A stretch of DNA of 64,000 bases, taken from Candidatus Thermoplasmatota archaeon. Its GTDB lineage: Archaea; Thermoplasmatota; SW-10-69-26; JACQPN01; JAJPHT01. The DNA lies in contig DATLGO010000004.1 in the NCBI GenBank assembly GCA_035540375.1, positions 1 through 64,000 of the forward strand, read 5' to 3'. A model generated the notes under the pieces. The model was not told where the DNA came from. It searched no databases and saw only the letters and a program-made list of their open reading frames with translations. Numbering within the stretch: position 1 is the stretch's first letter; each line of letters starts with the position of its first letter. The translations under genes were made by a program, and so were the position numbers. Positions 5,234-43,463 of this stretch are shown here, piece after piece.

Positions 5234-5317
5234 GCGGAGGTCCCCTAGCTGGTCAATGGGGCGAGACTTAGGATCTCGTGCCGCAGGGCTTCGCAGGTTC
5301 GAATCCTGCCCTCCGCA
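5234..5317 (+). tRNA. tRNA-Leu (UAG)
   Basis: Complete type II cloverleaf. The acceptor stem GCGGAGG (5234-5240) pairs with CCTCCGC (5310-5316), with A5317 as discriminator; CCA is not encoded. The anticodon stem CGAGA/TCTCG encloses the loop CTTAGGA with anticodon TAG at 5269-5271, which reads CUA-type leucine codons. A long variable arm follows, then the T arm GCAGG-TTCGAAT-CCTGC. No intron is visible. Confidence 0.94.
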
Positions 5318-6651: not shown

Positions 6652-7404
6652 TCAATAGGAAATCCAGCCGGACGCGTACTTGAACGGCACGGGGTCGCCC
6701 GTCATCGTGACCTCCACGTGGTAGTAGTTCACGTCCCCCTCCCGGTTCGTGGCGCCCTTGTCCTTGAAGACCGTCCCGTTCAACTGGTAGGCCCAGACGC
6801 AGTCGTGGATCGATTGAAGGACGGTGCACTTCGAGGCCGTCGTGCAGTCCGCAGGTCCGATGTTCGCTCCGCTGATGGTCTGCCGGTACGTGACGCAGGC
6901 CTTCACCGCGTACTCCTTGCCGATGGAATCGATCACACGGTTCGCGACGCGCCAGCCGAAGGTGTCGGTTCCGCGGACGTCCCCGTCGAACCGAGCGTAC
7001 CAGATGCACTTCCCGTAGGAGTAGGTGCTCGTGTTGACCCACCAGGGGCCCGTGTAGGCGCACTGCGGAACGCTGAACTGGGAATCCGTGTTCGCGCACG
7101 ACTGCGATCCGTCGGGACAGCCTCCCGGGGTTTCCGACGCCGTTTCGAGCCCGCGGATGCCGATCGAGTACCACTCGAGGTGACCGTTGTTCCGGGTCGG
7201 CGCCGCGCCCCGGTCGATCATGACGCCCGACGACGCATCGTAGTAGACGATGTGGTTGTCGAGGGTCCGGAGGTAGTCGCCGCTCGAGGGATTGAGGGGG
7301 TCGCTCTGCAACGCCCCTCCGCCTCCGCCGAAGGTGATCGCGGCGGCGGCGCCGGAGACGATGAGCAAGGTCGCGATGCAAGCCGATAGCCGGGGGATCC
7401 TCAT
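6652..7404 (-). CDS. small Cys-rich secreted protein, last gene of giant operon
   Basis: I do not recognise the family. The 250-aa product has an N-terminal signal peptide (LSACIATLLIVSGAAAAITF), a Gly run just after it, and about eight cysteines in the mature part, mostly between residues 100 and 205, which suggests disulfide-stabilised extracellular structure. It is rich in Tyr, Trp, Thr and Asn and contains N-glycosylation-type sequons (NTST, NGT). No transmembrane segment follows the signal. The ATG lies 6 nt after the stop of the 5,280-aa gene and the GGAGG-like ribosome binding site overlaps that gene's end, so translation is probably coupled and the product probably works with the giant protein. 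Possible roles such as a chaperone, processing factor or minor subunit are speculation. Confidence 0.7.
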   Translation of the reverse strand: MRIPRLSACIATLLIVSGAAAAITFGGGGGALQSDPLNPSSGDYLRTLDNHIVYYDASSGVMIDRGAAPTRNNGHLEWYSIGIRGLETASETPGGCPDGSQSCANTDSQFSVPQCAYTGPWWVNTSTYSYGKCIWYARFDGDVRGTDTFGWRVANRVIDSIGKEYAVKACVTYRQTISGANIGPADCTTASKCTVLQSIHDCVWAYQLNGTVFKDKGATNREGDVNYYHVEVTMTGDPVPFKYASGWISY

Positions 7405-7410
7405 GGTTTC

Positions 7411-10400
7411 CTAGCCTCCCTGATTGTTCGTGTTGAACTCCCTGGTGCCAAGTGAAACTTCCGCTCCCTGGTCCACGATCACGTCGATCGTGTGCGGCCC
7501 GTTCGAGCGGGTCCTCGTGTCCCACGCGTAGGACCACTTCGGCGCGCGTCCCAGGTTCGCGATGGCCGCCTGGTCGTGGTCGACGACGAGGCGGATCCGG
7601 TCGACGAGATCGCCCGCGTCGGGGTCGATCGCGGTACCCGTCAGGGTCGCCGTACCCGAGAAGGTCGCCCCCTCGGCCTGGTCGAAGGTGACGACGGGGA
7701 GGGCGTTCGCGGCGCGGATCACGATGTCGTCCACGTAGATCTCGCCGGCGCCCGTCGGGGTCGAGGCATCGAGGTCGCCGATCGCGAGCCGCGTGAGGGC
7801 GCCCGCAAGCGGCAGCTCGGTGTACATCTTGTTGTTGAACTCGATCGCCCACAGCCCGCGGTTCTGGTCGACGTCGATGCGGATCGGGTACCACGTGTTG
7901 GCGCTGATCGTTCCGAGGGCGAATTGGCTCCAGGAACCGCCGTACCGCGTCCGGGCGTAGGCCTCCGTGGCGCCCGTCACGGTGTTCGAGTGCAGCGAAA
8001 GGCCGATCTCGAACGTCGAGCCGGTGCCGAGCGCGAGCGCGTACATGTGGTTGAACTGCACGCTCGGCGAGGCGGTTGCGGCCGGATCGGCGGCGGGTCC
8101 GCTCGCGGTGGTCGAGCCCACGTCGACCTCCTGACGGAGGGAGCCCGCGGCCGGGTAGAGCACCATGGCGTCGACCACGAACCGCGACGGCAGGTTGAGC
8201 GATCGCGTGACGTGGGACACCTCGTTGGGCACGCCCGTCGACCGGAGGTGCGCCGCGCGCGACCCCGTCAGGGTGAAGTTGTCCGACCAGTCGGCATGGG
8301 ACGTGGGACGGTACGGGGGCTTGACCCAGAGCAGGGACGTCGTGTCGTCGAACCCTTCGGAGGCGACAAGGCGGCCGCGGTGGACGAGGAGCGACCGCCA
8401 GCGGAGGTCCGCGTCGCCGCCCCCGAGGACGATGCCGTCCGGCGCGAGCGCGCTCGAGGTCGAATAGCTTCCGACGAACGCGTCGTTGACCTTGAGTGTC
8501 CAGCGCCCGTCGAGGACGCTCACGACCAGCCTGTTGTAGGCAAGCGGCGCGAGCGACGCGCCCGTCGCGACGGACGAGGCCCCGTCGTGGACGACGATCG
8601 CATTGGAGACGCATCGGATCCTCACGACCGGATCGGTTGCGCTTGTGAGGCGGAGGAGATCGCCGTTTGCGCACCCGCCCTCGAATCGGCCGACGTCGAC
8701 GCTTGCCCAGTAGGCCGTTCCCGTCGCAGGAAGAGGCGCAGAAAGCGTCGCGCTCACGGTCGATGCGCCCTGGGTGCGGACGCTCTCGACCTTCTTCCAG
8801 GGATCCTTCGAAACCGACACGGGACCCGCGGTCGTCCAGCCTTCGGTGGTCGAGAGGGCCGCGTCGAGGAGGCCTCTCGCGAGGACGTCGCTCAGCGCCG
8901 ACCCCACGTCGTCGATCCACACCTCGCCCGAGGTGGCGGCCGCCGGAACGGCGAACCGAAGGGCCGAGACGGGCGCGGCGCCGAGTCGCGTGTACGTGCC
9001 GCGCGGGACGTCGTCCACGATGAGCGTCCACGTGGAGGCCCCGGGATCCTTGATCTCGAGCTTCGTCCACGCGCCCGTCGCGAGCGTGGCGCCCGTCGCG
9101 ACCCAGGCTCCGCCGGACAGCGCAAGGAGCGAGCCGCCCGGCTCGGCGCGCAGCGCGGCGACGGTGGTCGACCCGCCCGTCCTCAGCTCGAGGAGGTCGA
9201 TCGACCCGCCCGCCCCGGGCCGGAGGTTGACGAACGCCCAGTGGCGGCCGGCGGGGACGTTCTCGCCGATGGCCCATTGCGCGGACGGCGATGCGGCGCC
9301 GCTCGTCGCGAGGAGACGGATGCCCTGCGCGCCCTGCCGGGCCGCGATCGCCTCGGCCTTCGCGAATTCCGCGCCGGTTGTCGGATTGAGCGTCCAGTAC
9401 GGATCGCTTTCCACCGCGCCCGTGCGGACGACGGGGGTCGTGACCGGGGTCGCGTTGAACCGGTAGGTGACGACGGTCTTGGATTCCTTCGCGGTCGTCG
9501 CCGTGAGCTCGAGGACCTGGTTGAGGCCGAGGCCGTTCAGATCCTGCACGTAGTTCAGCGAGAGCGCGGGCGTGCCCGTCGCCTGGTACTTGAGGCCGCC
9601 GTTCAGCTTCACCTGCACGGTGACCGGCTCGGATCCCGCCTCCACCGTTCCTTTGATCGTGAACTTGTCGCCCACGACCTTGCCGTGCCCGCCCGAGACG
9701 CCGACGAGCTGGTCGTTCACGACCGCCCCGCCCACGAGATCCCGCGCGAGGTTGAAGACGGGCTCGGGCACGATCCGCCAGAGGAACGGCGGCGAGACCG
9801 CGTCGCGGAAGTTCCCCGCGAAGTCCTTGGCCTCGATCTTGAGCTCGTAGGAGGTGCCGTGCGTCATCGACCACGTCGTTGTCGTGACGACGTTCTGGCC
9901 GGGGACGAGCGTCACGCCGGTGAGCTGCGACCACGATCCGCCGACGACGCGGCGGTAGAGCTTGATCGAGTTGCGGTTGACGCCCGAGCCGTCGTCGAGG
10001 ATGGTCGTCTTGACCGAGAGCCACTTGTCGGCGAAGCCGCCTCCCGGAAGCTCGTTCGGCAGCACCGAGAGCGTGGGCGCGACGGTATCGACGTAGGCGA
10101 GCGCCTCGGCCGCGCCGAGCGGCTCGACGTTGCCGGACTTGTCGGTCGCCGAGGCGCGGACCTGGACGGGAACGTTCGTGGGGATCACGACGGACGCGCC
10201 CGGGTACGCTCCCGTGGTCGAGGCGCTCCACGCGCCGGCGGGAACGTAATGGTCGATCGGCCGGTACGCGAGGTTCGGGACGGGCGAGAGGGCTGTCTTG
10301 CGGCCATCGCCCGCGCTGACGCCGACGTGCGAGACGCGGGCGGTCTCCGGGAAGGCCCCGTAGCGGGCCTCGATCTCGCCCGTGCGCTTGAGGACGAGCG

Positions 10401-19400: not shown

Positions 19401-22400
19401 ACGTGAGCGAACGGCCCGCGACGGAGAGGGTGACGTACGCGACGCCGTTCTCGACCGAAAGCGGCAGGAGCAGGGCGCCGTGGATCTCCGAGAGGGGCCG
19501 CGGGAGCGGGAACGTCGCGGTGACGAGCGCGTCGGGGAGCGTCGCGTTGCCCGCAAGCAGGAACGGTCGGGTGTCGAGGTGGCCCGTGAGGCGCTCGTAG
19601 CGGAAGGCGGCGGGGTCCGCGAGGTGGGCCTCGTAGCGGGCGCGCGTCGCGGCGACGTCGTGGGCGCCGAGGCCTTCCGGCGGCGCGCGGCCGACGGTCG
19701 CGAAGGACCAGCCGATCTTCGTCTCCCCCCAGGGGAGTCGCTCGGAGGGCGCGTGCGTCGAATCGGCGCGCGCGCGGCCGCCGCGGCGGTTCCACGACCC
19801 TTCCGCGTAGGGCTCGACCTGCGCGGGCGCCTGCATCGGGTGCGCGATCGGAAGGATGGAGCGCGCGTCGAACGCGGAGCCCTGCTCGATGTCGAGGAAG
19901 CGGTACGCGACGGGGAGCGGGAGCGTCAGGACGCGATCGGCGTCGGGAATCGTCGCGGCGGCGTCGAGGCGGCCCGCGAGGAACGCGAAGGTGCGCGCGC
20001 GGCCCGACTCGCGGATCCCGTCCGGACCCTCCTCGCTCGGGACGGGAAGGGTCGCGCGCACGGCGAGCGCGACCGCGTAGGCCGCGGGCGGCACGAGGCC
20101 GAACTCCGCGCGCGCGTCGCGGAGGGTCGCGGAGGCGGCGGGCGCGAGGGGGAAGGGTTCGTACTCCAGGCGGTCGGGGCCGGATTCGGTCGGGGGCACG
20201 AGCCACGCCGTCGCCGATTCGGGAACGGGAAGGTGCGCGAGGGGCACCGTGAAGACGACGCCGCGCGTCGCGAAGACGGGGATCGTGAACGGGCGGTGGA
20301 GCGGGCTTGCGACGCCGCTCGACTCGATCGTCACCCTGAGGTGCGTCGCGTAGACGCCCGGGGCGGGCGGGAGCGTCAGCGTCACGTCCAGGTGTCGCGC
20401 GTTCGCCCGGTTCGGGAACGTCTCCCCCTGGTCGGGGTCCTCGTCCCACGCGATCGCGGGGGCCTCCGCGCCGGTGACGCGCGTCACGGCGAGGCCGCCC
20501 GGGGTCGCGTCGATGCGGTGCCAGACGAGGCTCCCCGGGTCGAGCGCGACGCGATCGGGGTCGAGGAAGCGGTTCGCGAGGAGCGCGAGGTGCGCGGTCG
20601 CGGAGGCGTCGCGCACGCCGAAATCGAGGCCGGCCGCGGAGGGCGTGACCGTCGCGGCGAGCACCTGGGCGAGGTCCTTGATCTCGAGGTCGAGCTCGCC
20701 CGCGCCCTGCGCGAACGGAGGCACGCCCGCGAGCGGGACCGCGAGGGCGGTGAGCCGTCCGCGGATGTATTGCAGCCGGTCGACGCCGGAGAGCCCGTTC
20801 TCGATCGCGAAGTTCTTGTCCATGACGAGGGCGAGCGCGCCGACATACGCCGCGGCGACGCGCGTCGTGGGGCGCAGGGCGTAGGCGCCGCCCGCGGCGT
20901 TCGCGGAGGGCCCGTAATCGATCTTCGCCTCTCCGGAAAGACCCCGCGCGTGGACGTCGTCGAGGGTCGCCCGCGTCTTCGCGCCCGCGACCTCGGCCTC
21001 GAAGACGAGCCGGTCGCAGCGGCAGGCGCCGCCCGTGGGCGCTTTCGGGACCTCGCGGTGGAGCGTCGCGAACGGCGCGCCCGTCGCGGCGTCGAGGATC
21101 TCGAAGGCGACCACCGTGTGGGGCGGGTCGATCGAGGTCCCGCGGTAGTCGCGGCCGGTGTCGCGCACGCGGACCTTGAGAAGCCGTCCGGACGGCGCCG
21201 CTTCCGAGGAATCCGTCGCGCACTCGACGCACGGCTCGACGGGCACGCACACGAGACCTTCGCACACGGTGCGCGGCTCCGGCCGGTAGTCCATGCGATG
21301 GTCGACGACCACGAACGGGTCGGCGAGCACGCGGCCCGTGCCGGTCACGCGCAGGTCGAGGCCGAGGGCGTTGCGGGGTTCCGCGCCGGCGTTTGCGTCG
21401 GAGAGCGCGAGACGGTACGCCGTGCCGGGGACCCCGAGGCCGCTCGGCTGGAGCAGGATCTTCGCCTCGAACCACGTGCCCGCGGGGGCGGGTCGGGCGC
21501 CGGGCCACGTCGCGCCCGAGGCGACGGTGGGGCTCGCGTCGACGACGAGCGCGCCCTGTTCGATGCGGGCGGCGCCCGCGAGGACGCGCCCCGGGTCGTG
21601 GTCGAAGCGGTCGTCGAGGTTGTAGGTCGCGGCCCGCGAGGACCCGCCCATCGCGGCGAGGGCGTCGTTCATCACGATCGGGATGTCCGCGGGGGCGACG
21701 AGGTCCGGCTTCACGCCGTAGAAGGCGCGCGTCGGTCCGGCGCCGCTCGTCGGCAAAAGGACGCGCCGCGTGCCCCCTCCGGGCGTCTCGTCGCTCGTGG
21801 TCGCGCCCACCGTGATGACCTGCGGGAGGTCCGCGAGCCCGCCGAGCGACTGGAGGTCCCATCGGCCGAGGTCGACGTCGTGCCTCGCGCCGTCGCCCGC
21901 GGGAACGATGACCGGAACGCCTTCGTGGACCATCTGCGAGAGCGCGAGGTGGAGACACACGCGCTCCTCGAGGTGGCTCGCCTCGTGGGCGAGGATCGCG
22001 GCTTCGGCGGGCGAGAGGTGCGAGAAGTCGAGCGCCTCGAGTCCGAACGGGAGCTTGATCGACGGCTCGAAGACGTGGTAGTCCGGAACCGTCCCGCCCG
22101 CGCGGCGCGGCCCGGCCCACGGGAGCGGCGCGCAGAGCAGTCCGTCGCCGTCGTGGTGACCGTCGACGCCGCCGTGGCCGCCGCCGTGGCCTCCACCGTG
22201 CCCGCCGTGGCCGTGCTGGTGCGCGGGTTGCGCGTTGCCGTAGAGGCTCTGATCGTGGAACGGCAGGGGCGCGCTCTCGTTGAAGCCGTTGGGAAGGGGA
22301 TAGGCGTGGTTCTCGCCGCCGTAATCGTACATCGCGAGATTCGCGGCGACCGCGCGCCAGAGGACGGCGCGCGCGGCCTCGAGCGCGCCGCCCGCGGGGG

Positions 22401-23253
22401 GCGTCGCGCCCGGCGCGCTCGCCCCCGTGTAGGGGTCGGCCGCGGAGAGCGCGTCCGGGACGCGGTGGAACCCGGCTTCGGGCGGGAGGAGCGAGACGAC
22501 GACGTCCGCGCCCTCCTCGAGGGCGTACGCGAGGCTCCGCGCGATCGCGCGGACGCTCAGGCGCCCCTCGTCGTCGGTGACGCGGATGACGAGGTACGAG
22601 GCGCCGAAGGCCTTCTGGAGCATGACGGAAAGGGCGCCTGTCGAGGCCCCGTCCGGATCGCGCGCGGCCGAGAGGTCGAGCGAGGCGCAGGGCCAGGCGT
22701 CGCACCGCGCGTAGGTCAGGTCGAGGCCCGACACCCCTCCGATCGCCGGGAGGACCGTGGGGTCGAGGCCGGACACGAGCACGGCCGCCTTCGCGGCGAG
22801 CGTCGTGCCCGCGGGCGCGGCCTGGATGAGCTCGCGCGCGTCGTTTGGCTGCACGTCGCTTGCGGCGAGGCGGCGGGCCTCTTCGCCCGCCCACGCCTCG
22901 GGCTCGAGGGCCTCGACGCGCACGCGCGCGTAGGCCTTCGCGCTCTCGCCGGTGGGTCCCGTGATCGTGAGCGTGATCACGTGCTCACCCGTCGCGCGGT
23001 AGCGGTGGACGGCCGCGACGCCGGTCGCGGTCGCGCCGTCGCCCCAGTCCCAGGCCCAGGTCGACCCGGGCGGCGCGTAGGCGCTTGCGGCGTCCGCGAC
23101 GAAGGTCGTCGCCGTCGTCCCGACGTCGGGCGTCACGACGAACTCCGCGTACGGTTTCGCGGGCGGAGGCGCCGCCGCCCCCGTCACGAACGCGGAGCCG
23201 GGGGAGACGAGAAGCACGGCGAGGACGACGAGCGGGACGCGGGGAGTCTTCAC
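7411..23253 (-). CDS. giant secreted multidomain protein (5,280 aa) with PKD and degenerate subtilase domains
   Basis: Exported extracellular giant of unknown function. Start is GTG at 23253: it has GGAGGTG 7 nt upstream and opens a signal peptide (VPLVVLAVLLVSPGSAFVTG); the frame stays open far upstream but that part is Arg/Pro-rich shadow of the previous gene. Domains in order: PKD at about 36-110; subtilisin-like fold at about 150-865 with an inserted cysteine-bearing beta domain (about 552-775) and a His/Gly-rich loop (343-370); beta-sandwich stretches; parallel beta-helix at about 1940-2180; a long tandem of Ig-like modules introduced by D-x-T/R-x-P-P motifs (2300-3700); a LamG-like jelly roll (3740-3945); more Ig-like modules; three tandem jelly-roll modules (4610-5180); a final Ig-like domain. 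It has no C-terminal anchor or sorting tail. The catalytic residues of the subtilase fold seem lost. It overlaps the upstream 4,320-aa gene by GTGA, so translation is coupled. An adhesin or matrix fibre is the most natural inference. Confidence 0.9.
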   Translation of the reverse strand: MKTPRVPLVVLAVLLVSPGSAFVTGAAAPPPAKPYAEFVVTPDVGTTATTFVADAASAYAPPGSTWAWDWGDGATATGVAAVHRYRATGEHVITLTITGPTGESAKAYARVRVEALEPEAWAGEEARRLAASDVQPNDARELIQAAPAGTTLAAKAAVLVSGLDPTVLPAIGGVSGLDLTYARCDAWPCASLDLSAARDPDGASTGALSVMLQKAFGASYLVIRVTDDEGRLSVRAIARSLAYALEEGADVVVSLLPPEAGFHRVPDALSAADPYTGASAPGATPPAGGALEAARAVLWRAVAANLAMYDYGGENHAYPLPNGFNESAPLPFHDQSLYGNAQPAHQHGHGGHGGGHGGGHGGVDGHHDGDGLLCAPLPWAGPRRAGGTVPDYHVFEPSIKLPFGLEALDFSHLSPAEAAILAHEASHLEERVCLHLALSQMVHEGVPVIVPAGDGARHDVDLGRWDLQSLGGLADLPQVITVGATTSDETPGGGTRRVLLPTSGAGPTRAFYGVKPDLVAPADIPIVMNDALAAMGGSSRAATYNLDDRFDHDPGRVLAGAARIEQGALVVDASPTVASGATWPGARPAPAGTWFEAKILLQPSGLGVPGTAYRLALSDANAGAEPRNALGLDLRVTGTGRVLADPFVVVDHRMDYRPEPRTVCEGLVCVPVEPCVECATDSSEAAPSGRLLKVRVRDTGRDYRGTSIDPPHTVVAFEILDAATGAPFATLHREVPKAPTGGACRCDRLVFEAEVAGAKTRATLDDVHARGLSGEAKIDYGPSANAAGGAYALRPTTRVAAAYVGALALVMDKNFAIENGLSGVDRLQYIRGRLTALAVPLAGVPPFAQGAGELDLEIKDLAQVLAATVTPSAAGLDFGVRDASATAHLALLANRFLDPDRVALDPGSLVWHRIDATPGGLAVTRVTGAEAPAIAWDEDPDQGETFPNRANARHLDVTLTLPPAPGVYATHLRVTIESSGVASPLHRPFTIPVFATRGVVFTVPLAHLPVPESATAWLVPPTESGPDRLEYEPFPLAPAASATLRDARAEFGLVPPAAYAVALAVRATLPVPSEEGPDGIRESGRARTFAFLAGRLDAAATIPDADRVLTLPLPVAYRFLDIEQGSAFDARSILPIAHPMQAPAQVEPYAEGSWNRRGGRARADSTHAPSERLPWGETKIGWSFATVGRAPPEGLGAHDVAATRARYEAHLADPAAFRYERLTGHLDTRPFLLAGNATLPDALVTATFPLPRPLSEIHGALLLPLSVENGVAYVTLSVAGRSLTYLATPDGLWIPAPREGLAWPHKRDVNDTMPETHAGGLLSGAGHTHALGRAGVKLAPATPGGYVVPVAFHDLAAEAPALDVAIVIRPDRTDLSGRAFGSGPLDGTQGVRFALDGAALAAWTAGEARLDLESLRLDVANLPNLLPGGGDDPLAAPAIRVEPHDARGRLVGESIDVYLRGPDGRLVLEGGEGTVPSPAPGSTEDTGIALSNAVAPAPVAVSFAFGRALGPVYYPDLHPIGVLDAYAYVTPQVHPLAARHVTFAAPGAGLWRLDERALGDASETGDVEVRFTAGSSARVAFARVEEPVADLADPSPAVPGHDFHCLFPQDVVRSPVLLPAGAATCARGLAYAPGGGYGVLAFSYGNRTHLYGPGGEIGYNASLVVEAYRALAEDAYDDAASTLGNVTQDGDANVTDADAFLRVVRDECRYRSADATRCLGDLLDFVLDLTGLARGRFQTPVTPSGPGYAGLVNGTVALWSGVVPHGGLLVVEHAFPPADAADAVTFALAPSNGARPLGLATVEGDARFAPTDPFDRATRVDAFDLSSWSGRRVSVLATSTGGLWNVLGTVAHATAAALPGERMDASALFVDPVTSRLRDVLHDAPWSDPATLGPAEAVASTASVMRLPAGFVVEGVWTLADRTLVVGGEKGAEAILRVPAGATLRLANVTIVPRVPDAPWSLVVEKGGRLEAADAFFVRGGHPQTGATLVVEGVAELARGGILAGAVGARIPAGGALVAREAAFSALATALLVDGGSVELDGALVDANRRGLVAPGGHVFVADTLFTSNEGGALLAQDALVAVSGATFAWNARAGDAAVAVFEGLDTGRAVMHDVTWTANARDLLARADVDLHQARFDEAAEDGVHVIGARLRLDRAVVERPVALDAGASLEARASRFYDALVCVAGVATGPIDVATSRLSDEPSTCVHEPPVAPVDPGTPDPAWRAVVARPHVGYASPAYTLPARATASAFDLAVVPPARLALEDGVLALAAPDRALALAAAPAGLEPGSESWTWPAILDTVAPSAAVTFSPNEIAGFTRDLTVPFEIAAADAGSGLALTRFRLSTENPDGSPGLARTQPTAGFRGPFGALGEGALGALPLVTGERLTLEPEVLDRAGNVATGVARSITFDRTPPRGWIHAENACGDLVGWNLRWRGHDPVVGSGLRPAGEGWTYAVYWAPLDHAWVLHHTRMAMSELNRDVQAPAFNAEMLERLSVNQALKAFIESNLPQGLTWNLVGEFDRDTTHVHFNGIDNLQDFLAKNAHLATALATDVWERKRVQDAALEAAVPAVDDVTALNPLVAAVKVVVRDRLGNEATWYEPVIADVFGPTSLLYLLGDTARERVLASVVGAGATVDLSTLEAELALFDPDCGLRLADVYAPSEAGLAKIATLYPRDGRVTLDVLSARKLFSGGDCGLMDLTVRAKDVFGKEVEVGARTIVDTLAPVTDGLSWRKVSSHAPLVTDPPALGVPVGIDPSWLRDDHFNVLGQSTSRNLCEIAASIHDVRVQARVGDSGWITLDREHVGGGIDPATNRSLNPTVSIDRMVRVDAAAFGLDNRSISGRLVEVRVVASDEAGNRETKPQADFAFHIDRAPPVCRVLDIGLDGGHAIPLVWASNDSDQAVAGAVVNASLLVRPEGVAADWHLYAYLPAAEGDATIRMREGPVPAWLEARRLWPVEAACAVYDAAGNLALSEAVETTLDLFKPDIHWLPPFVPAFVNDSPTVSWLAVDHEGAIDRVVLVAESERGDRRTHATPDATGQWAIRPANLAAEDGALWTVTATTWDRAGNANRSTAATFRFDLTAPAGDLADLARQVNPDGFVSEPRVWFRPNLENLGAGVQSDLVVKVLFGPPALPVEKAPLPNGTYRLDLADGQRYRVVLVVCDAAGNCQADRPAVEFTVDVTGPTLFVDDLPTYTNKTVDLRWIAADATAGLAKIEILAGNGDAPPAPWYAEPNAAQPTARGDASVTYGADRLALDDGKPWRFVVRATDRAGLLREVNKNVTLVDVTPPLSTLTLPPHVADGYVRAGEPLLIDLDVAVQDPPRDSAPTSVALEARVGANGAWTPATDPHPVASGQRYWFRSIASDAAGNVEPPESIEILGGFLVDVHAPATALKSFNGFPAIRPWTGANVHAVFRVTDPLVEGALEASGIRPGADGLKVWLVDVASGHRTELAVSEVAGGPGWREYETSIAIAPNRLHRFEVSGRDVAGNVEGPALLLDGFAWDNRPPGAILAPVKGETLLLAQDLLVQVDDSVPDGYASGVDYVELETTRLGYDLPAPLGVDVATREVGAVQSEFTWTRNLGSSADDGTKYAWRIRAVDVSGLAGPWTPVASTILDLTPPTVTVVPKGDAGDGFAKDLPLRVDVVVTNAAPVDRWAGRLGRLALEVETTGATHRPLVLADLAGENVPPRGTWTLADVDLAGVDGVEYSARAYVRDAVGHGSDSGAATGATSRRTDEVNLLAFDGAANVYSDLGTMGQTLTTTQHPVHETSPWGMAYRFGTNRYLQWSSGTTWALGSAFTVMAWVKPDVASQTAPLSTKANAADDWTLWLEAGKAKATVKTAAGSVAVASDAALPVHAWTHLAMTWDGTTLTLWVDGVPKTVSGAASGAVSESPTQFRFIGSNAASAGGGAKFYSGALDEFRLYRRVLPALEIDEVSKRPYVAAARPAPAKILLDRTAPTATPLVATLYRPSTTVAPIAADPAPAGGLASGVASVAIETRVLDGSLYTHETSTTARPSGYVFSRVAGTDVASGAWARIYRYPYVGASRSMRAEVDLVDNLESWMTGCGSESLAGKLALRIVMGPYTYDHDLTTTAPGLVVTPYQTQSNSPFFEVSIRALGQWKTCYPEFEAFVKRVRFVDSLGTAFVDDGFTAFSGWTEQNGNANLNPRHVPAEPVFSWTTGALSTASRQRLDLPFAFKVYGQPVTALWADEKGVVGFSEGFEASPTAANFDGQRVIAPAWGAFVVGTGASKGLRVSATDDRATIIWNVGSTANPATSNNFALVLKRTGEIEARYGAFPETARVSHVGVSAGDGRKTALSPVPNLAYRPIDHYVPAGAWSASTTGAYPGASVVIPTNVPVQVRASATDKSGNVEPLGAAEALAYVDTVAPTLSVLPNELPGGGFADKWLSVKTTILDDGSGVNRNSIKLYRRVVGGSWSQLTGVTLVPGQNVVTTTTWSMTHGTSYELKIEAKDFAGNFRDAVSPPFLWRIVPEPVFNLARDLVGGAVVNDQLVGVSGGHGKVVGDKFTIKGTVEAGSEPVTVQVKLNGGLKYQATGTPALSLNYVQDLNGLGLNQVLELTATTAKESKTVVTYRFNATPVTTPVVRTGAVESDPYWTLNPTTGAEFAKAEAIAARQGAQGIRLLATSGAASPSAQWAIGENVPAGRHWAFVNLRPGAGGSIDLLELRTGGSTTVAALRAEPGGSLLALSGGAWVATGATLATGAWTKLEIKDPGASTWTLIVDDVPRGTYTRLGAAPVSALRFAVPAAATSGEVWIDDVGSALSDVLARGLLDAALSTTEGWTTAGPVSVSKDPWKKVESVRTQGASTVSATLSAPLPATGTAYWASVDVGRFEGGCANGDLLRLTSATDPVVRIRCVSNAIVVHDGASSVATGASLAPLAYNRLVVSVLDGRWTLKVNDAFVGSYSTSSALAPDGIVLGGGDADLRWRSLLVHRGRLVASEGFDDTTSLLWVKPPYRPTSHADWSDNFTLTGSRAAHLRSTGVPNEVSHVTRSLNLPSRFVVDAMVLYPAAGSLRQEVDVGSTTASGPAADPAATASPSVQFNHMYALALGTGSTFEIGLSLHSNTVTGATEAYARTRYGGSWSQFALGTISANTWYPIRIDVDQNRGLWAIEFNNKMYTELPLAGALTRLAIGDLDASTPTGAGEIYVDDIVIRAANALPVVTFDQAEGATFSGTATLTGTAIDPDAGDLVDRIRLVVDHDQAAIANLGRAPKWSYAWDTRTRSNGPHTIDVIVDQGAEVSLGTREFNTNNQGG

Positions 23254-32200: not shown

Positions 32201-35200
32201 CCGTCACGCGGAGGCCCGCGGGAACGTTGTCGGGGTCGATGAAGAGGTGGATCATGCCGAAGTTCAGGTGCTCGAACCCGATCTCCCAATAGACCTCCTC
32301 CCGCGAGGGGGCGGAGAGCCCGCTCTCGTCGTTGTCGCGGTAGGCCTTCTCGCCCCAGGGCGAGACGGCCTCCGGGACGTCGTCCACGCTCGGCTCGAGG
32401 TCGAAGATGTTGTAGCAGCGGCCGGAGTCGAAGTCGCCCGCGACGACCGCCTCCTCGGGTTTGTCGATCTTCGTGATGTCGTAGACCGCGCGGTAGTACG
32501 TGCAGCGCCAGAAGATGTTCACGGATTCGCCGGAATCTCCCGTCATCACCGGGACCCCGGTGATCGCTCGGCCGTTCACGTTCCAGGTCTGGGACCGGTT
32601 GTAGAACGGCTGCTCGTAGAGCCCGCGGCCCGGCGGCTTGATCTGGTCGGCCACCGCGTGGTGGTCGCCCGCGAGCACGAGGTCGGGGACGAGCGTGTAA
32701 TTGCGCAGGTCGATGACGCTCGTGTATCGCGCGATGTCCTCGAGGCGTCCCGTGAGGGGGTTGAGGACGGGGTGGTGCTCCATGAAATGCGTCGTGAAGA
32801 GCCGCTGCGAGGCGGGGTTCACGGCGAACCCCGTCGGGTTGGGATTCGGCACCGCGGCGGCGTTCGGGACGAGGTCGCGGCCGATGACGTGCGCCTCGGG
32901 AATGGCCCAGTCGATGCGGTTCTCCTCGAGCTGCGCCGCCATGACGAAGTCGCTGAGAAGGTGTCCCCCGTACACCTCGAAGGTGTAGGGATTCACGTTC
33001 AGATGGTGGGGCATGAAGTCCATCGACAGGAGCAGATTGGCCTGGAAGCCGGTCGTCACCATCGGGGGCACGACGCACGTCGTGCGCGGCACCTTGTCGG
33101 CGGGCTTGCCGATGATCGGCAGGTCGTTTTTCTTGGACATCTCCTTGTGGCAGGGGACGCTTCCGCCGCTCCGCTGGATGATGCTCAGCCAGCCGGGCAC
33201 GAGCGGCGCGTTGTCGTGGTTGCCGAGGTTCGAGATGTAGATGTTGCCGTCGCCGGGGTTGATCCAGATGTCGAAGGGCTGCAGCAGGCGCGGACGGACC
33301 TCGTACCAATAGTCGAGGAGGAGCGGACCCACGGGCTCGCGGATGATGAACACGTGGTGCTCGTTGCTCACGCCCGCGTAGTCGACCTGGATGGGCGTGG
33401 CGCGCGGATAATGGATCGGCTCGACGTCGTCGCAGTGCCAGGGGTGCTTGCCGCCGGCCTCCTTCTCCTTGCCGCGGGCCTCCCACGGATCCTCGCCCTC
33501 GGCGAGGTGGAAGAGCCAGTCGTCGGCGCTGTAGCGGACGCAGTAATCGAGCCACGTCGCGGTCCCGACGGCGCTTCCCGCCCCGGCGATCGGGATCATG
33601 GAGCGGACCGAGGCTTCGAGCGTGGGCGTGTCGACCGTGCCGTCCTCGAGGCCCACGAGGGAGCCGTCGCGCGCCGCGCCGAGCCACTTCTCAAGGAATT
33701 TCGCCGACGCGTTCGTGAAGGAGTGGTCCTCCTCCGCGAGGTCGACGAGGTCGGCCACGAACGCCTCCGTGCGGCCGGGCCAGCGCGCCTCGAGCGAGGC
33801 GAAGACCTCGACGACCGCCGGTGGCCGCTCGGGGGGCGTCACGCGCTCGATCGTCGCGAGCGACTTCTCGAGGAAGGCGAGGTCGTCGCGGCTTGTCAAC
33901 CGGTCGAACCACCGGTCGCGGAACGCGTCCGCCGCGGCCGGGAAGCTCGCGGGCTCGACGAGGAAGAGGTCGCGGAAGTCCTGGACGAGGTCGGCCCACG
34001 TCGTGTCCTCGAGGATGCGGCGCGTCATGGATTCCACGAGAGGCGAGACGAAGCCGAGGCGGTCGTCGCCCGCGCGCGTCGCCGCGGGCGCGTTGAACTC
34101 GAACCAGCCGCCGATCTCGTTGCCTTCCGGCAGGCGCGTCGAGTCCGGGTCGTGGTAGAGCGTGAGGTCGCGCGGGACCGCGTGGAGGCTCGACGCATCG
34201 AGCGTCACGGCCTGCACCGTGGGACCCTTGAGCTGCACCGAGGCCTTGTCGGTCGAGAAGCCCCGCTTCCCGTTGTGGAGGAGGAGCGAGAGCGTGTTCG
34301 ATTCGCGGTTGACGACGAATACGCTCCCGTCGCGCACGTCCACGTCCACGCTGATGGGATGCATGCCGTCGACGGGGCCGCCGACGTCCATGGGATAGGC
34401 CTTGCTCGCAAGGAGCACCTCGCCGCGCCCGCCGGGGCACGCGGCGTCACGCTTCGTCGCCGCGCACGACTCGGGCCCGGGTCCGCCCTTCGTGAGGTAA
34501 GGATTGTTGAACTTGGCGCTCGCGGGGTTGCCGTCGATGAAATGGATGGTCCAATCCGCGAGCATCCGGACGTCGGGATCGTTGAGCTGCCAGTAATGCG
34601 TGACGTACACGAGGCCCGTCACGGGGTTGTACACGACGTCGTGCGGACCGACCGAGACGTTCCCCACGATCTCGATGTAGCGCTCCCAGGCGTCGAGCTC
34701 CGCGTCGGCCTCGGCGACGTGCTTGCGGTGCTCGTCCCGGAGCACGGGATAGGGGACGAGGTTGTTCGTGTCGATGCGTCGCCGGATCTTCACCTCGATG
34801 TCCGAGGTCACCTCGAGGTACCGGATGAACCAGTCGCAGCGCCATCCGTCGCCGTCGCCGAGGCGCGAGGGATTGGATCGCGAGTAGAGGCCGGGCGAGT
34901 GGATGGCGTCGTAGCGCGCGAGGCGGCGCGTGTCGTAGGCGCAGAACTCGTTCGCGAACTCCGCGTCGTGCCAGAGGCGCGCGTCGATGCCGGTGAACGC
35001 GAGGAAGCACGCCCACCCGGTCGCGCCGGGCGGCGGGGGGTTCGAGACGACGGGCGGGTCCGTGCGCGCGGTGATGTAGGCGAGGGCGTCGTTCAGGTCC
35101 TTGTCCCAGAGGAACGACGTGTCGAGGCGGTCGCTCCAGCGGGCGCCCGCCGCGCGGTCGAAGCAATAGCGGTGGATGGTGTCGAGGGAACGCGCGAAGC

Positions 35201-36212
35201 GGTCCTCGACCTCGCGCGCGCCGAGCAGGAGGCTCGACGCATAGTAGAGGACGGCTTCGCGCGAGAAGACCGCGTTGTCGTCGAGCAGGAGCACGCGATA
35301 GCCCGTGCGCTCCTCGTACGAGGCGACCTTGCCCCAATCGACGACGTTGAGATTGACGATCGCGACCTTGCCCTGGTGCGAGAGCGCGGTGTAGATCCAG
35401 TTCAGCTCCGTGTTGAAGTCGAGGCCGTGGGGGCCGAGGTGGCCGTGGCCCTCGACCGAGCCCGTGAAGTCGACCGCGGTCGAGGTGTCGCCGATCGCGG
35501 CCCCGGTCGCGTTCACGCCGCGGCGGTGCGGGTCCTGCTCGTGGTAGTCGGCTTCGCCCCAGCCCGGCTCGTCCTCGAAGAACGGCTGGTAGCGGCATTG
35601 GCTCGACGCGAGGATCTGCTTCGAAAGCGGGAGGGACTTGAGGTCGACGCTCTTGCGCTCGCCTTCGGGCGTCGTATACGACACGACGGGGAGGTCGCGC
35701 GCGTTCTCGAGCACCTGCTTCTTCGCGGAGCACACGGCGTCGATGTTCTCGCGCGTCACGCCGCGGTCCTCCAGCACCTGGAACATGAGCTCCTCGGCCG
35801 AGCGGAGGCCGAGCGCCTCGTAGTATTCGGGCTGCTCGTCGTACTGGCGCTCGAAATACGAGCGGTAGAGGTGGCCGAGGCTCCCGAAGTGGTCGCCGTT
35901 CGAGTGCGCGGAGAAGTAGGCCGCGTAGAGGTCGTGCTCGCACGTGAAGCCCGTGAGCGGGTTCGGGGAGGAGGCGTGGAGACACGGCGTGAGGTTCAGG
36001 CCGACGGTGCCGAGCCGCAGGAACGTGTTCGACCGGTGGAGGGTCGGAGGCTCGACGGCGGACAGCATGCCGTGCGAGACGGGCGACGACGGCGTCCCTT
36101 CGCGCACGCGGTCGAATCCGCCGTGGGACATCGCAAGGTTCGCCCCGAACAGGAGGGCGATCGCCATGAAGGCCGCGAGCTGACGCTGACGCTGGTTGAA
36201 TGGCCCGACCAA
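23250..36212 (-). CDS. giant secreted protein (4,320 aa) with N-terminal propeller-like region
   Basis: Exported giant, function unknown. TTG at 36212 is taken as start: GGGGAGG lies 8 nt upstream and the signal peptide follows (LAAFMAIALLFGANLAMS, then HGG). An internal ATG at codon 16 is the alternative. Residues 280-1270 contain repeats of the NHL/YVTN propeller kind, such as PHDVVYNPVTGLVYVTHYW, SVDVDVRDGSVFVVN, FDIWINPGDGNIYISNLG and GFAVNPASQRLFTTHF. A beta-rich middle follows, a PKD-like domain at about 2275-2415, a charged all-helical, coiled-coil-like segment at about 2730-2880, jelly-roll/Fn3-like modules (3120-3240, 3590-3700) and a Cys-containing C-terminal lectin-like region. No membrane anchor is seen. 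It lies 144 nt downstream of the anchored propeller gene and overlaps the 5,280-aa gene by 4 nt. Co-secretion and physical association of the two giants is inference. Confidence 0.88.
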   Translation of the reverse strand: MVGPFNQRQRQLAAFMAIALLFGANLAMSHGGFDRVREGTPSSPVSHGMLSAVEPPTLHRSNTFLRLGTVGLNLTPCLHASSPNPLTGFTCEHDLYAAYFSAHSNGDHFGSLGHLYRSYFERQYDEQPEYYEALGLRSAEELMFQVLEDRGVTRENIDAVCSAKKQVLENARDLPVVSYTTPEGERKSVDLKSLPLSKQILASSQCRYQPFFEDEPGWGEADYHEQDPHRRGVNATGAAIGDTSTAVDFTGSVEGHGHLGPHGLDFNTELNWIYTALSHQGKVAIVNLNVVDWGKVASYEERTGYRVLLLDDNAVFSREAVLYYASSLLLGAREVEDRFARSLDTIHRYCFDRAAGARWSDRLDTSFLWDKDLNDALAYITARTDPPVVSNPPPPGATGWACFLAFTGIDARLWHDAEFANEFCAYDTRRLARYDAIHSPGLYSRSNPSRLGDGDGWRCDWFIRYLEVTSDIEVKIRRRIDTNNLVPYPVLRDEHRKHVAEADAELDAWERYIEIVGNVSVGPHDVVYNPVTGLVYVTHYWQLNDPDVRMLADWTIHFIDGNPASAKFNNPYLTKGGPGPESCAATKRDAACPGGRGEVLLASKAYPMDVGGPVDGMHPISVDVDVRDGSVFVVNRESNTLSLLLHNGKRGFSTDKASVQLKGPTVQAVTLDASSLHAVPRDLTLYHDPDSTRLPEGNEIGGWFEFNAPAATRAGDDRLGFVSPLVESMTRRILEDTTWADLVQDFRDLFLVEPASFPAAADAFRDRWFDRLTSRDDLAFLEKSLATIERVTPPERPPAVVEVFASLEARWPGRTEAFVADLVDLAEEDHSFTNASAKFLEKWLGAARDGSLVGLEDGTVDTPTLEASVRSMIPIAGAGSAVGTATWLDYCVRYSADDWLFHLAEGEDPWEARGKEKEAGGKHPWHCDDVEPIHYPRATPIQVDYAGVSNEHHVFIIREPVGPLLLDYWYEVRPRLLQPFDIWINPGDGNIYISNLGNHDNAPLVPGWLSIIQRSGGSVPCHKEMSKKNDLPIIGKPADKVPRTTCVVPPMVTTGFQANLLLSMDFMPHHLNVNPYTFEVYGGHLLSDFVMAAQLEENRIDWAIPEAHVIGRDLVPNAAAVPNPNPTGFAVNPASQRLFTTHFMEHHPVLNPLTGRLEDIARYTSVIDLRNYTLVPDLVLAGDHHAVADQIKPPGRGLYEQPFYNRSQTWNVNGRAITGVPVMTGDSGESVNIFWRCTYYRAVYDITKIDKPEEAVVAGDFDSGRCYNIFDLEPSVDDVPEAVSPWGEKAYRDNDESGLSAPSREEVYWEIGFEHLNFGMIHLFIDPDNVPAGLRVTAPHARVESRDVSAGLQATEELASAWVEVDTPARARIPQGALRIGPASGAALAADPNPGDEWFLAFEAAWQVERAPQTAPLDPDRMTVSIGPPFETLARAATWSSSNAIGDAWFESRVPLSAFTKGGDKATVAFDFDSVDAIDNRHGGWSIVQVRVENKTPVGDPIVYAAVPASLPGFASSGMLATVDVIDPAAGAAPVPALAFRNATKGTYEAAGPARGAFSFEVDVPFEDPVLVIRHRQDVEPAGRGRVAHAPVDRLSVEASLDGGVTWRTVWMRDSRDPSQPVPSAVLANVSGLVDVATGRAAASFGGTANPRDVVFRFAFDAIDPVANGYPGWRIEYPRLLKVARANGTLLATSEVALGTPAGLPTVPGVNPAWWRDGAGFRFSNDVGTYAYPDAAGGIAGLACRLDHRGFGTWSGRFLRPPGGHGLSFVGRDLAGHVTEHRQTDGRGPAIVEDTFMDPGFTESYWERREIDPMGLAYPAYVFDPMADGMGDVIPKDTPVNFTIGRVDAILDPAPGEVHVGSRAVLIEVPPGSANWFTFNKQDLVTEAAALVTDGIQRRRALVVTPADSDLERLPEDLRRVLREEGQWLNVSHVSRLREPTPVLTTLDQITQNAQGGPMDEDGVSIEEELIIREFLRASTMALQRGQFGFREPPVDRYLVEGTPALRQIAGERLIHRFRFERDHAAPTSVDLAFDFAVRNRVESYQVLMDPQLPRVDLELLRYILNNVTLDKLDLAESEIRKLVGDENLTGAFASDVRWLREHTLADLGYTLEDLLDTTLEAASKLLSVRVPMSEILNDLDRLQMSLPTFGQGHRVRVWLVNETGGRALVATRDAIDGPVLPFEPEPPAGDVRVTLAASKAPGFFDVKVGLDVARFEKLRVTLDAAEAERLLPETGDYAIEIEAVLKAGDAPVPGLVYEMDYGPFWFNVGRAAGANEAPDATFVWVGPVEPGRPVVFAPNRATPALANLEDPDGRVVSYRWTLPVPDASLVSLGAPLAPDANDDPADDFFTNALATGFGRNLRRLTVEETADGIVVAYEADGCFTPSVTATFPSAGAHVVKLEVTDDGGRVATRQETVVVGASRRAPELLVDPWVEDGAGPQRVAWQADTGALVLSARGRTLDLDLSDPTPEMLAILENAAKTSREVIEAVKTDPLSIPDILLDSLVVRPATVRVVTTESQDASAGVRMQIRLGAMPESLDVLRDSLASAKAVGTGADRFARTSATNRTIVVRNLADLTEDAFAEVTKLLHAGLLEAYVFTYALHPEKADGSADLSKTLARMTFMDTGAGVVFLVGYEVVDDVETIVDFEGSEEERELREALARLDAIVPFGRYLVAAKHLEREGEDLARALPLVTALEKDVASIIGEPTLFRGLETAFGASKAQVVARGQRIAAVDLTLNAITAEARLHVEEVSDAALALADARRAEIARWAGNAMTNVTLDSVAEREAAYRLHVQSQRDAALAEVAAADENGKLAVAELLAANDALLAWAEDWVDAIERRDVRELDERVMSARRNATLAMRELLNATAAAYERVDPKRFIAVFDGSVSGLRLGAPSQSQVVLGYDASTRAAFVRVGDRILDEGTVNLPPAQRVHASMTFTSIGAHSAEIDAIWGGRGGTLIDGFNGVMKPMWSVVTTDHPGTRASAAAEPRDATRPSASVHTTWVTRSPEGLASDALEAFVNRRRAAEDARASLPDASAARRPDAFHRATDTARTLDQVPEAVALRADHPEVHLATVDLAPGAVQEISVSAGGAKGAPTVGPPLGAPPAPFVFDARLHRAPGLAEKLQVSFQPSGLANPAVAYYEVFASPRPDGKAVKLGHVTPGYRALEGPIGEADWRPGVDFVTFETSTLDPAFDREWRYITVRGVNKDGLAGESSLPYRVRPALLEERFALHREGRLAPSTGVEPVYESGEIRLDPWGLVDARLDTCLGDMVEITRETSFPHDAHQARWSRALRIQERGLDTLFSILNQLNRDLDAVPMNLASIDQPLASVDLDLCPSVEKLAQQLNGLATETILQALAIGETDPSLPPLRVNPPVGSGNAEVNLAFHDALAGLLADRRIDLSIEDILHGTPATVTWRTAEVTGPYHARVRFLVPGLQPGLFNALIPGDRFHLVQLGRATGGAFEETLRVDLDPHILAPLDPEGAVSWVSALPDPVGAVVGNKLPLSYGIAAGDTATNREIVGGAHPDRWHTIDVYAPAKDADVYAVALDGQFVGQFRTTSGAVPNALRIGGTHIPIEVLVDDIRFGDAIKPPAPVLEAVKVPENHDFATVRWYMPEDGGAPLVDFNLLRRDLDANASAEIVATTAAGHLRALSDPTSHGLPVGTRLAYAVQGVNALGPGLDQVGPPSDARAVVMPAMIPVAADASIAHRHGSPSEDRRVFEGAPTLQVGGAGGTVWRSVLKVNASSIADARGRAIAPSEMGAATFLVYATQNGEAVSSAISRPPTLEELLMTLGYSENLAESAFDTIEIETAEEASYWADKLVPGGGSYVREVFGNEAYDAFLHAFIGTFVVPAIPCPDDLIQGATGLGAACTPADPEPLHFDLGCKDVSRDLELQETAFNCAENAIGAYVSGSTGFDTRHLSWANQPRTEYWRGDDGIDRQGTRSETWRRYDLLPALRRDGDGDLAVTLRKQAEHVPSGAAVYAAREARTWLDDALGVEGRGPGARMLPWADGRGPDAFPWAAPASSGVRSVKLGGIGDIASLGFAPDGVATVPFDAPIKMDVFIPEGEAPRQIGLKISGSVVTRAEGTAGRSCGVYGRYDGPALVTWGDELVVLDPATGALTLDHDGELDHGANLLHPRENFTGLHAGGVPLQRGRWVTLTFDTGQLALEVAAQRFQRDRSIVERVLDALETFRGPDTSLWLPRHLGDARAIYERLRPVTFTERVDSVGGFRHKDIVDKEPYDYHIPSWVFLFQNYDKFILPWHCGLAITSIEVFAVGGTVYVDRLGPDIAPRLRVDAVLDRPDPIFGGGSS

Positions 36213-36356
36213 GGGCTGAACCTCCCCGATGGATGCGCCCGGGAAGGCCCGACGCGGGCCGGTCTCCCCGAACGAGTCTCCCTACCGAGCCGGGATATCG
36301 GACATGGCGACGATAAGGGTTGCCGTCCGCCGGTTAAAACGAGGCCTCGCCACGGG

Positions 36357-38099
36357 TCAGGGGCGGCCCCGGTCCGGTGCGACCGGTTCGAGTTCGACCT
36401 CGGGCCGCACCAATTCGACCTTGACCTTCCACCGGCGGCGCGCGAGGGCGCGCAGACGCTCCAGGGGGAGACGCCCGCGGACCCATGCGCGGGCGAAGAG
36501 CAGCGCCACGATGAGGAGGACGACCGCGACGAGGGCGATGAAGCCCGGATTGTCGATGAAGAAGGCGAGCGTCGCGCGGGCGTACGCGAAGGACACGCGC
36601 TCGAGGTCGAGGCCCTGGACGGGCGGCGCCATGCCGAAGGAGAGGCGCGCGTAGAGCGGGGCGCCGACGGCGTAGATCGCCCGCACCTGGAGGACGTGAG
36701 GGCCGGGACGGAAGTCGCCGGGCTTCAGGGTGACCGTGAACTCGGAGGCGGGCGGAATCTCCGTGTATCGGATGCCGTCCGTCGTCCATGCGAGGCTCAC
36801 GGGGGGACCCCATTCGCCCGGGGAGAAGGATCCGCGCACCACGACGTCGTTCCGCGTGAGGATGACGTTCGCCGTGACCGGCGGGTCGACGATGAGCAGC
36901 CGGGGCGCGCGCACGAGCGCGTGCGGACTCGGCCGGAAGGTCACGAGATCGAGGCCCGTGCCGTTCGCGAGCACGGCGTAGACGCGCTCGCCGTCGGTGT
37001 ACGGCCCCGCGTGGATCTTGAGCGTTCCCGTGAGCTGGACGCGCTGGCCGTTCGAGAGGTTCGCGGCGAAGATGAGGTTGTCCTTGCCGTCGTCCTCCTT
37101 CCACACGGCGAGGTCGCCCGCGATCGCCGGCGGGTGGCTCGACTTGAACGCGATCTGCATGTCGCGCACCGTCTTCGAGGCGGGGTCGAAGCGGAGGAGA
37201 CGCCACGCGCCGTCGCGCTGCTCGAGGTAGTGGATCGACTTCCCGTCCGAGACGGGCACGCTCGGCGCCGTGGGGCCCCGCGTGATGATGCCGGTTCGAC
37301 CCGTCGCGACGTCGAACCACGCAAGCTCCCACACGCCGTACTGGCTCGCGCGCCACACGACGACGCCGCCCGCGACGACCGGGTCCGTCTGGCGCGAGGG
37401 ACCGCTCGCGGCGACGATTGCGGGCGACCCGTCGAGCCGGCGCGCGTGGATGTCCCACGTGAGCTTGTTGTTGTTGTCCTGCCACGCGACGACGCCGCCC
37501 GCGACCGCGGGCGTGAGCTCGTCGAGGGACCCGTTCGAGACGCGGACGAGGCCGTTCGTGTCGAAATCGAGCGCCCAGATGTCGCCGCGGCGACGGTCGC
37601 GGTGGTCCACCCACACGGCCGTTTTGCCGTCGAAGTCGAGGTCGCGCTTCGCGCTCGAGACGTTCGTGACGAAAAGGCCCGTGCCGGCCTCGACGTTGTG
37701 CGCGTACACGTCGACCGCCCGCGTACCGGGACGCGTCGCGAGCCACACGGCCCACGGGTGCGCGAGGCGGACCTCGCGGTCGAGGATGACGGACGCGGGG
37801 GCCGGGACGGGGACGGCGGCGACCTTCCCCCACCACCACGACTCCGCGTGGAGGGAAAGCCACGGGCTCTGGTTCACGTACGCGCGGAGGGCGCGGCGCT
37901 TCGCCTCCTCGAACTGCTTGCGCTTCTCGGTCGCGTTCGGCTCGTCCTCGGGGTGGTCGTGGGGCTCGCCGCCCCCATGCGCGAGCGCAACCGGCACGGG
38001 CGCGAAGAGGGCCGGGACGAGGAGGAGCGCGAGGAGGGCGAGGGCGCCGGCCCTGGGGGCGCCTCGGCTCCGCTCGCGGACCTTTGTCAACGTGACCAC
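36357..38099 (-). CDS. membrane-anchored TolB-like beta-propeller protein
   Basis: A 580-aa cell-surface protein. A signal peptide (residues about 15-40, ending VALA) is followed by a His-rich mature N-terminus (HGGGEPHDHPEDE). Residues about 90-400 carry propeller blades of the TolB/WD40-like type, each with a strand motif such as PAVAGGVVAWQDNN, PVVAGGVVVWRAS or PAIAGDLAVWKEDD. An Ig-like domain follows (about 400-510), then one transmembrane helix (IALVAVVLLIVALLFA, about 532-550) and a basic cytoplasmic tail. GTG at 38099 is chosen: a TATA-like box lies about 33 nt upstream and no separate ribosome binding site is seen, so the mRNA is probably leaderless. It is the first gene on the strand leading into the giant operon and may be the only membrane-tethered partner for the two giants. 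Confidence 0.82.
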   Translation of the reverse strand: MVTLTKVRERSRGAPRAGALALLALLLVPALFAPVPVALAHGGGEPHDHPEDEPNATEKRKQFEEAKRRALRAYVNQSPWLSLHAESWWWGKVAAVPVPAPASVILDREVRLAHPWAVWLATRPGTRAVDVYAHNVEAGTGLFVTNVSSAKRDLDFDGKTAVWVDHRDRRRGDIWALDFDTNGLVRVSNGSLDELTPAVAGGVVAWQDNNNKLTWDIHARRLDGSPAIVAASGPSRQTDPVVAGGVVVWRASQYGVWELAWFDVATGRTGIITRGPTAPSVPVSDGKSIHYLEQRDGAWRLLRFDPASKTVRDMQIAFKSSHPPAIAGDLAVWKEDDGKDNLIFAANLSNGQRVQLTGTLKIHAGPYTDGERVYAVLANGTGLDLVTFRPSPHALVRAPRLLIVDPPVTANVILTRNDVVVRGSFSPGEWGPPVSLAWTTDGIRYTEIPPASEFTVTLKPGDFRPGPHVLQVRAIYAVGAPLYARLSFGMAPPVQGLDLERVSFAYARATLAFFIDNPGFIALVAVVLLIVALLFARAWVRGRLPLERLRALARRRWKVKVELVRPEVELEPVAPDRGRP

Positions 38100-38127: not shown

Positions 38128-38135
38128 TCTTAAAG
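38128..38135 (-). promoter_or_regulatory. TATA-like box for the propeller gene and perhaps the giant operon
   Basis: CTTTAAGA on the minus strand, centred about 33 nt upstream of the GTG at 38099. If no promoter acts in the 144-nt gap at 36213-36356, this one would drive a transcript of about 31 kb. The gap does contain weak AT-rich candidates (around 36310-36340). Confidence 0.55.
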
Positions 38136-41284: not shown

Positions 41285-41351
41285 CAAAGAGCCTCCCGAT
41301 GCGAAGGGGCCCGGGCGTGCCTTGACCCTTTCGGCCGGGCGTCGCGGCCCT

Positions 41352-43025: not shown

Positions 43026-43253
43026 CGGGCGGGAACCTCCGCGTGGGACGCGGAGGGAGGCACCATGAGCCTTCGCCCGCGCCGTCGCCGCCGAGCCCGC
43101 GTCGACGCGGGTGCGGCGCCATGGCAGGGATCGGTCCCCGCGCCGCCGCTCCTTGAACCGCAACCCTTATCCCGCAATGCGCGATAGGCGACTTCGCGGG
43201 CCCGGGAAACCGGGACGTCCTTCCTGAGGAACGACGAATCCCTCGTCGCCGCA

Positions 43254-43381: not shown

Positions 43382-43411
43382 TCGCACCAGCGGGGTGGGG
43401 TAGCCAGGAAA
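43382..43411 (+). repeat. direct repeat: second copy, within intact tRNA-iMet
   Basis: The intact partner of the repeat at 43254-43283, offset by 128 bp. It covers 7 nt of flank and nucleotides 1-23 of the initiator tRNA. Confidence 0.85.
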
Positions 43412-43463
43412 TCCCGACGGGCTCATAACCCGTAGATCAGTAGTTCAAATCTACTCCCCGCTA
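43389..43463 (+). tRNA. initiator tRNA-Met (CAU)
   Basis: A 75-nt intronless cloverleaf with the archaeal initiator features: the acceptor AGCGGGG (43389-43395) pairs with CCCCGCT (43456-43462) giving the characteristic A1:U72 pair, and the anticodon stem ends in three G:C pairs (ACGGG/CCCGT) around loop CTCATAA with anticodon CAT. The T arm is AGTAG-TTCAAAT-CTACT. The discriminator is A43463; CCA is not encoded. A T6 run follows 30 nt downstream. Confidence 0.95.

Follow-up and report, generated by a model that had tools for sequence, protein, structure and literature searches.

Two tandem genes for giant secreted proteins in a tRNA-bounded, probable surface-protein block of a Thermoplasmatota archaeon

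Genes for giant exported proteins rank with the largest investments of an archaeal genome, and little is known of their origins. The SPEARE proteins of Nanohaloarchaeota combine LamG and adhesion domains with a serine-protease-type region. They also have a transmembrane anchor, usually C-terminal, and, on the cytoplasmic side, a type III restriction domain (PMC6642349). Halomucin of Haloquadratum walsbyi is a sugar-binding protein of ~9,000 aa (PMC6642349). Aloposons of Heimdallarchaeum contain tandem giant genes, Otus and Ephialtes, at tRNA sites (PMC8813620). A first-pass annotation of the DNA considered here stated that no archaeal system with its arrangement of genes was known to be described; the aloposons, in which archaeal giants lie in tandem at a tRNA gene, speak against that statement (PMC8813620).

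The window, that is, the whole stretch of 64,000 nucleotides that was analysed, comes from a genome of 3.13 Mb in 110 contigs that is 97% complete. The genome is archaeal, as indicated by a full-length archaeal SSU rRNA match (1,508.9 bits). The first-pass annotation described four minus-strand genes in the window, encoding a propeller, two giants (giant1 and giant2), and a small Cys-rich protein (the Cys protein). An ORF and hydropathy check reproduced their coordinates, lengths, and signal peptides, as well as the spacing of 144 nt, a 4-nt overlap (GTGA), and 6 nt (Table 1). An N-terminal signal-type helix was found by hydropathy in all four proteins. A C-terminal hydrophobic helix, which would act as a membrane anchor, is present in the propeller only and in none of the other three, again as described. 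In particular, the N-terminal helix was the only hydrophobic helix that hydropathy detected in each giant, and no cell-surface anchor was recognised in them. A fifth minus-strand secreted gene, which encodes a beta-helix protein, and the tRNA-bounded context of the genes had been absent from the first-pass annotation.

Table 1. Features of the block and its borders in the window (positions are those of the window)
Feature	Position	Strand	Remarks
Beta-propeller protein, 580 aa	36357..38099	-	Signal peptide, Methanosarcina-type propeller repeats, C-terminal transmembrane helix
TATA-like box CTTTAAG	38129..38135	-	30 nt upstream of propeller start
Gap between propeller and giant1, 144 nt	36213..36356	-	AT run TTTTAA at 36334-36339
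Giant1, 4,320 aa	23250..36212	-	TTG start, Shine-Dalgarno, signal helix
Giant2, 5,280 aa	7411..23253	-	GTG start, Shine-Dalgarno, signal peptide
Subtilase-like region of giant2, aa 156-850	20706..22788	-	Apparently eroded catalytic motifs, ~240-aa insertion
Small Cys-rich secreted protein, 250 aa, 9 Cys	6652..7404	-	Shine-Dalgarno; 6 nt after giant2
Secreted right-handed beta-helix protein (NosD-like), 418 aa	5339..6595	-	56 nt downstream of the Cys gene
TATA-like box of the beta-helix gene	6619-6625	-	24 nt before start codon
tRNA-Leu(TAG), left block border	5234..5317	+	Adjoins NOB1-like gene and gyrB-gyrA
tRNA-Met(CAT), right block border	43389..43464	+	92-95% identical to tRNA-Met of G002 and G003
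Amino acid permease, divergent from propeller, inside block	38219..39580	+	Pfam AA_permease_2, E 3e-62
Two tandem paralogous secreted proteins, 54% identity, inside block	39581..43163	-	Genome-specific expanded family

Do the giant frames encode proteins? The giant region has a GC content of 71%, at which long antisense frames are common (e.g., 3,280 aa on the plus strand), so an open frame alone is little proof of coding. Across giant1 and giant2, GC content was at its maximum at codon position 3 in all 95 of 95 consecutive 300-nt windows. When the giant region was shuffled (n=200), the longest stop-free run was 681 codons. Internal stops are absent from the propeller, giant1, giant2, and Cys ORFs. 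Giant1 and giant2 are each a single intact coding frame, and the continuity ascribed to them in the first-pass annotation was confirmed by codon-position GC, which indicates coding throughout.

The sequences around the start codons suggest how these genes are grouped for expression. The motif GTGA comprises the end of giant1 and the start of giant2, and a Shine-Dalgarno-like GGAGG precedes the starts of giant1, giant2, and the Cys gene (3 of 3). At the propeller and beta-helix starts, a Shine-Dalgarno sequence is missing and a TATA-like box is present instead. There are six TATA-like boxes on the minus strand of the 64 kb, and the chance of finding one in a given 16-nt window is ~0.0015. A TATA-like box without a Shine-Dalgarno sequence is the pattern of a putative first gene with a short leader or none. 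Giant1, giant2, and the Cys gene look like a tight, translationally coupled unit, and the propeller gene is probably a separate or optional one. The TTTTAA run in the gap between the propeller and giant1, one of nine AT runs of 6 or more in the 64 kb, is a possible promoter or terminator. The best reading of the layout is three units (propeller, giant1-giant2-Cys, and beta-helix), and transcription may read through from the propeller.

Giant2 is rich in domains of the adhesin type. It has a PKD domain near its N-terminus (PKD_4, E 4.6e-10), LamG (Laminin_G_3, E 4.3e-24), Ig-like domains (Big_13, E 3.3e-12, plus Big_7), and OmpL47-type repeats, and an internal profile identified at least seven related Ig-like units. 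In addition, aa 156-860 display, by reading, segments in the order seen in subtilases. These segments are, in order, AAVLVSGLDP, DPDGASTGAL, ASYLVIRVTDDEG, EGADVVVSL, GVPVIVPAGDG, VITVGAT, GVKPDLVAP, ALRPTTRVAAAYVG, and GAGELDL. An S8 profile made from 30 subtilases of the same archaeal class was run on this region, from which the insertion and a His/Gly-rich loop were omitted. The region scored 18.8 bits; the top shuffle out of 300 reached 5.8, and the top window out of 26 taken elsewhere in the giants reached -0.7. The program hhalign aligned the region with the S8 profile at a probability of 91% over 73 columns. The N-terminal half alone scored no better than the best shuffles, the NCBIfam subtilisin model QhpE gave a weak match to aa ~206-252 (E 0.029), and S8 was not reported in a Pfam scan of giant2. 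A single-sequence AlphaFold model of the region had a mean pLDDT of 36. The region is likely a subtilase fold, judging from the profile comparisons. Is it an active protease? VSG occurs in place of DTG (strand aa 156-169), AST in place of HGT (203-205), PTT near 795 in place of GTS, and AGD in place of AGN, with the Asp and His motif positions aligned by reading only. In other words, the catalytic motifs appear to be lost and the domain looks inactive. Giant2 was also compared with a divergent set of subtilases from the class that appear to be active, and it did not match them. Elsewhere in the class, frames of ~2,000-4,900 codons carry one or two subtilase domains (L069-L073, that is, G000:C24, G005:C34, G005:C33, G002:C12, and G000:C49).

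Giant1 has fewer landmarks. One PKD domain lies at aa ~2373-2417, and tandem beta domains at aa 1383-1676 are shared with another frame of the same genome, 2,208 codons long. Propeller-like stretches were seen by reading at aa ~480-1290, where the NHL match is weak. No recognisable domain covers most of giant1 or large parts of giant2, and a different activity could be hidden in these parts. The Cys protein had no family match in domain-profile scans; one of its nine Cys falls in the signal peptide, and its single-sequence AlphaFold model had a mean pLDDT of 34. The propeller matched NCBIfam TIGR04275 at E 1.3e-14, under the model's curated cut-off. The beta-helix protein matched Pfam Beta_helix (E 1.9e-20) and NosD (E 2.1e-19). 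A PDB search with the subtilase-like region, the giant1 N-terminus, and the propeller returned no useful match.

The giants have no convincing relative among 390 phylum genomes. In that set, the N-terminal 1,350 aa of giant1 matched nothing besides itself, and aa 900-2250 of giant2 gave one 144-aa match (E 4e-4). Other matches to the giants were to common domains (PKD, Ig-like, and similar). The subtilase-like region of giant2 had no match in 194 phylum genomes, and the Cys protein had no relative in a 77-genome phylum sample (76 others besides its own genome). Conserved peptides of giant1 were found in none of 84,980 named genomes in a weak search by exact 8-mers only. The propeller has a single full-length relative, in G001, with 30% identity, and neither giants nor a Cys protein are present near it. 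These results argue against a conserved co-occurrence of the four genes, which the first-pass annotation had named as a check: the set was not found together in any related genome sampled, and only the propeller recurs, alone, in G001. That the genes are not neighbours in relatives is mainly due to the absence of the giants from the sampled relatives.

The position of these genes in the chromosome can be defined by comparison with other genomes of the class. In G002 and G003, the gene order is gyrA, gyrB, a NOB1-like gene, tRNA-Leu(TAG), and tRNA-Met(CAT), with the two tRNA genes ~0.7 kb apart. The window has the same genes and tRNAs, unchanged in order and orientation, with the tRNA genes 38 kb apart. 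This 38-kb interval contains the beta-helix, Cys, giant, propeller, and permease genes and two paralogous secreted proteins. In G001, which belongs to the same family, unrelated genes follow tRNA-Leu, and tRNA-Met is absent from the next ~55 kb. The interval beyond tRNA-Leu is thus variable in the class. How did the block arise? The tRNA-Leu 3' end was not found a second time in the window, the block genes scanned had no match to an integrase, MinD/ParA, or another mobility gene, and the GC content and codon-position pattern of the block are host-like. The insertion is therefore seen only as a gene-content difference, and the block may be the product of several events instead of a single insertion.

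A 30-nt exact direct repeat was observed at the right border (43254-43283 and 43382-43411, 128 nt apart). It corresponds to the 5' part of tRNA-Met plus its upstream flank, which would fit a broken copy of this tRNA gene immediately ahead of the intact one. The two tandem secreted paralogs next to this border (39581-41287 and 41355-43163) are members of a family that has at least 29 open frames in the genome. Its members are roughly 30-55% identical; seven copies form a run on contig C70, and further copies are at L217-L229. The family had no Pfam or PDB match, and outside its own genome it was seen only as ~70-aa stretches in one other genome of the 77-genome phylum sample. Conserved Asp/Gly positions and DxNxDG-type loops, noted by reading, suggest calcium binding. 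Near the right end of the window, the minus strand (60701-63874) encodes a PKD/HYR protein of 1,057 aa that matches the SIBA-E integrin beta-like N-terminal domain (E 1.8e-8).

What is the function of the block? The reading preferred here, at a probability of roughly 0.55, is that it is a lineage-specific surface-protein block between tRNA-Leu(TAG) and tRNA-Met, in which the giants and the Cys protein form a fibre outside the cell, with an adhesive or matrix role. Such a fibre is the most likely product, given the domain content and the export signals. Giant1, giant2, and the Cys protein would be made together, exported by Sec, and assembled into a long fibre whose LamG, Ig, and PKD domains bind glycans or other cells. 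Since its catalytic motifs appear lost, the subtilase-like domain of giant2 would have a structural or binding role. The anchored propeller and the beta-helix protein would be neighbours with promoters of their own, which may, but need not, help to retain or bind the fibre; retention of the giants at the surface is an assumption of the fibre model. The first-pass annotation had instead proposed that all four genes form one co-transcribed extracellular assembly, with the propeller docking the giants and the Cys protein as an accessory. Part of this proposal stands, namely that all the products are secreted or at the surface, that giant2 has adhesin-type domains, and that giant1, giant2, and Cys are coupled. 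The membership of the propeller does not. The shared strand and order, the short gaps, and a C-terminal membrane anchor found in the propeller only are in its favor, but the promoter-like box of the propeller, the gap with its AT run, and the G001 homologue without giants, together with the failure to find any genome with a conserved set, make the four-gene assembly unlikely. Docking by the propeller is possible but not favored.

Another alternative is that the block is an aloposon-like mobile element, in which tandem giants integrate at a downstream tRNA gene as in Heimdallarchaeum. Several points would fit such an element: the giants form a tandem pair within the range of 3,000-6,000 aa, a tRNA gene lies downstream of them, the block begins just past the tRNA-Leu 3' end, other genes fill the same interval in G001, and there is a published precedent (PMC8813620). 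However, the scanned block genes gave no match to MinD/ParA or another mobility gene, a permease and the propeller lie upstream, no second tRNA-Leu 3' end was found in the window, and the composition is that of the host, which leaves this origin quite doubtful. A broader version, in which a non-Asgard, aloposon-like tRNA-associated element with paired secreted giants swaps surface coats between relatives at one tRNA-Leu site, is similarly speculative. It is a comparably long guess that the swapped coat would consist of the giants, the propeller, the beta-helix protein, and the expanded-family proteins. Finally, giant2 might be a secreted active subtilase with substrate-binding modules, one of the peptide-scavenging set of the class. 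The subtilase-like signal, the presence of 15-24 S8 matches in each genome of the class (several of them within frames of 2,000-4,900 codons), and the amino acid permease divergent from the cluster point in this direction, but the apparent loss of the catalytic motifs makes an active protease improbable.

The fibre reading places this locus beside the described systems without making it one of them. The comparison with aloposons is based on gene arrangement, in which two of three stated features are shared. Like aloposons, the locus has tandem genes for proteins of 3,000-6,000 aa (here 4,320 and 5,280 aa, with a 4-nt overlap) and a tRNA gene downstream, although tRNA-Leu lies 2.1 kb past the giant2 end with two small genes between. 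The feature absent among the block genes scanned is the set of four consecutive upstream genes that includes a MinD/ParA-like ATPase. Furthermore, aloposon hosts are Asgard archaea, whereas the source genome is not Asgard, judging from GyrB relatives. The named relatives in the GyrB scan were all distant, and the best of them included Altiarchaeales, Thermoplasmata-type, and Woesearchaeota genomes. The likeness to SPEARE proteins lies in the LamG, other adhesion domains, and protease-type region of giant2. In contrast to SPEARE, the locus encodes a coupled pair of secreted giants, its protease-like domain appears to be inactive, and neither giant had a match to a C-terminal membrane anchor or a type III restriction domain. 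Halomucin is likewise a giant archaeal protein that is thought to be extracellular, but it is encoded by a single gene instead of two. The large S8/PKD frames of the same class (G000, G001, G002, and G005) are also of the extracellular type and mix subtilase and PKD domains; their subtilase domains score well on the family profile, and they have no end-to-end relation to giant1 or giant2. On the features tested, the giants are archaeal giant surface proteins that belong to neither the aloposons nor the SPEARE proteins. Giants without convincing relatives in the phylum, located at a defined tRNA site, provide a place to ask whether archaeal surface giants are acquired as exchangeable cassettes, and they add a further archaeal lineage to the tandem-giant-at-tRNA arrangement of Heimdallarchaeum.
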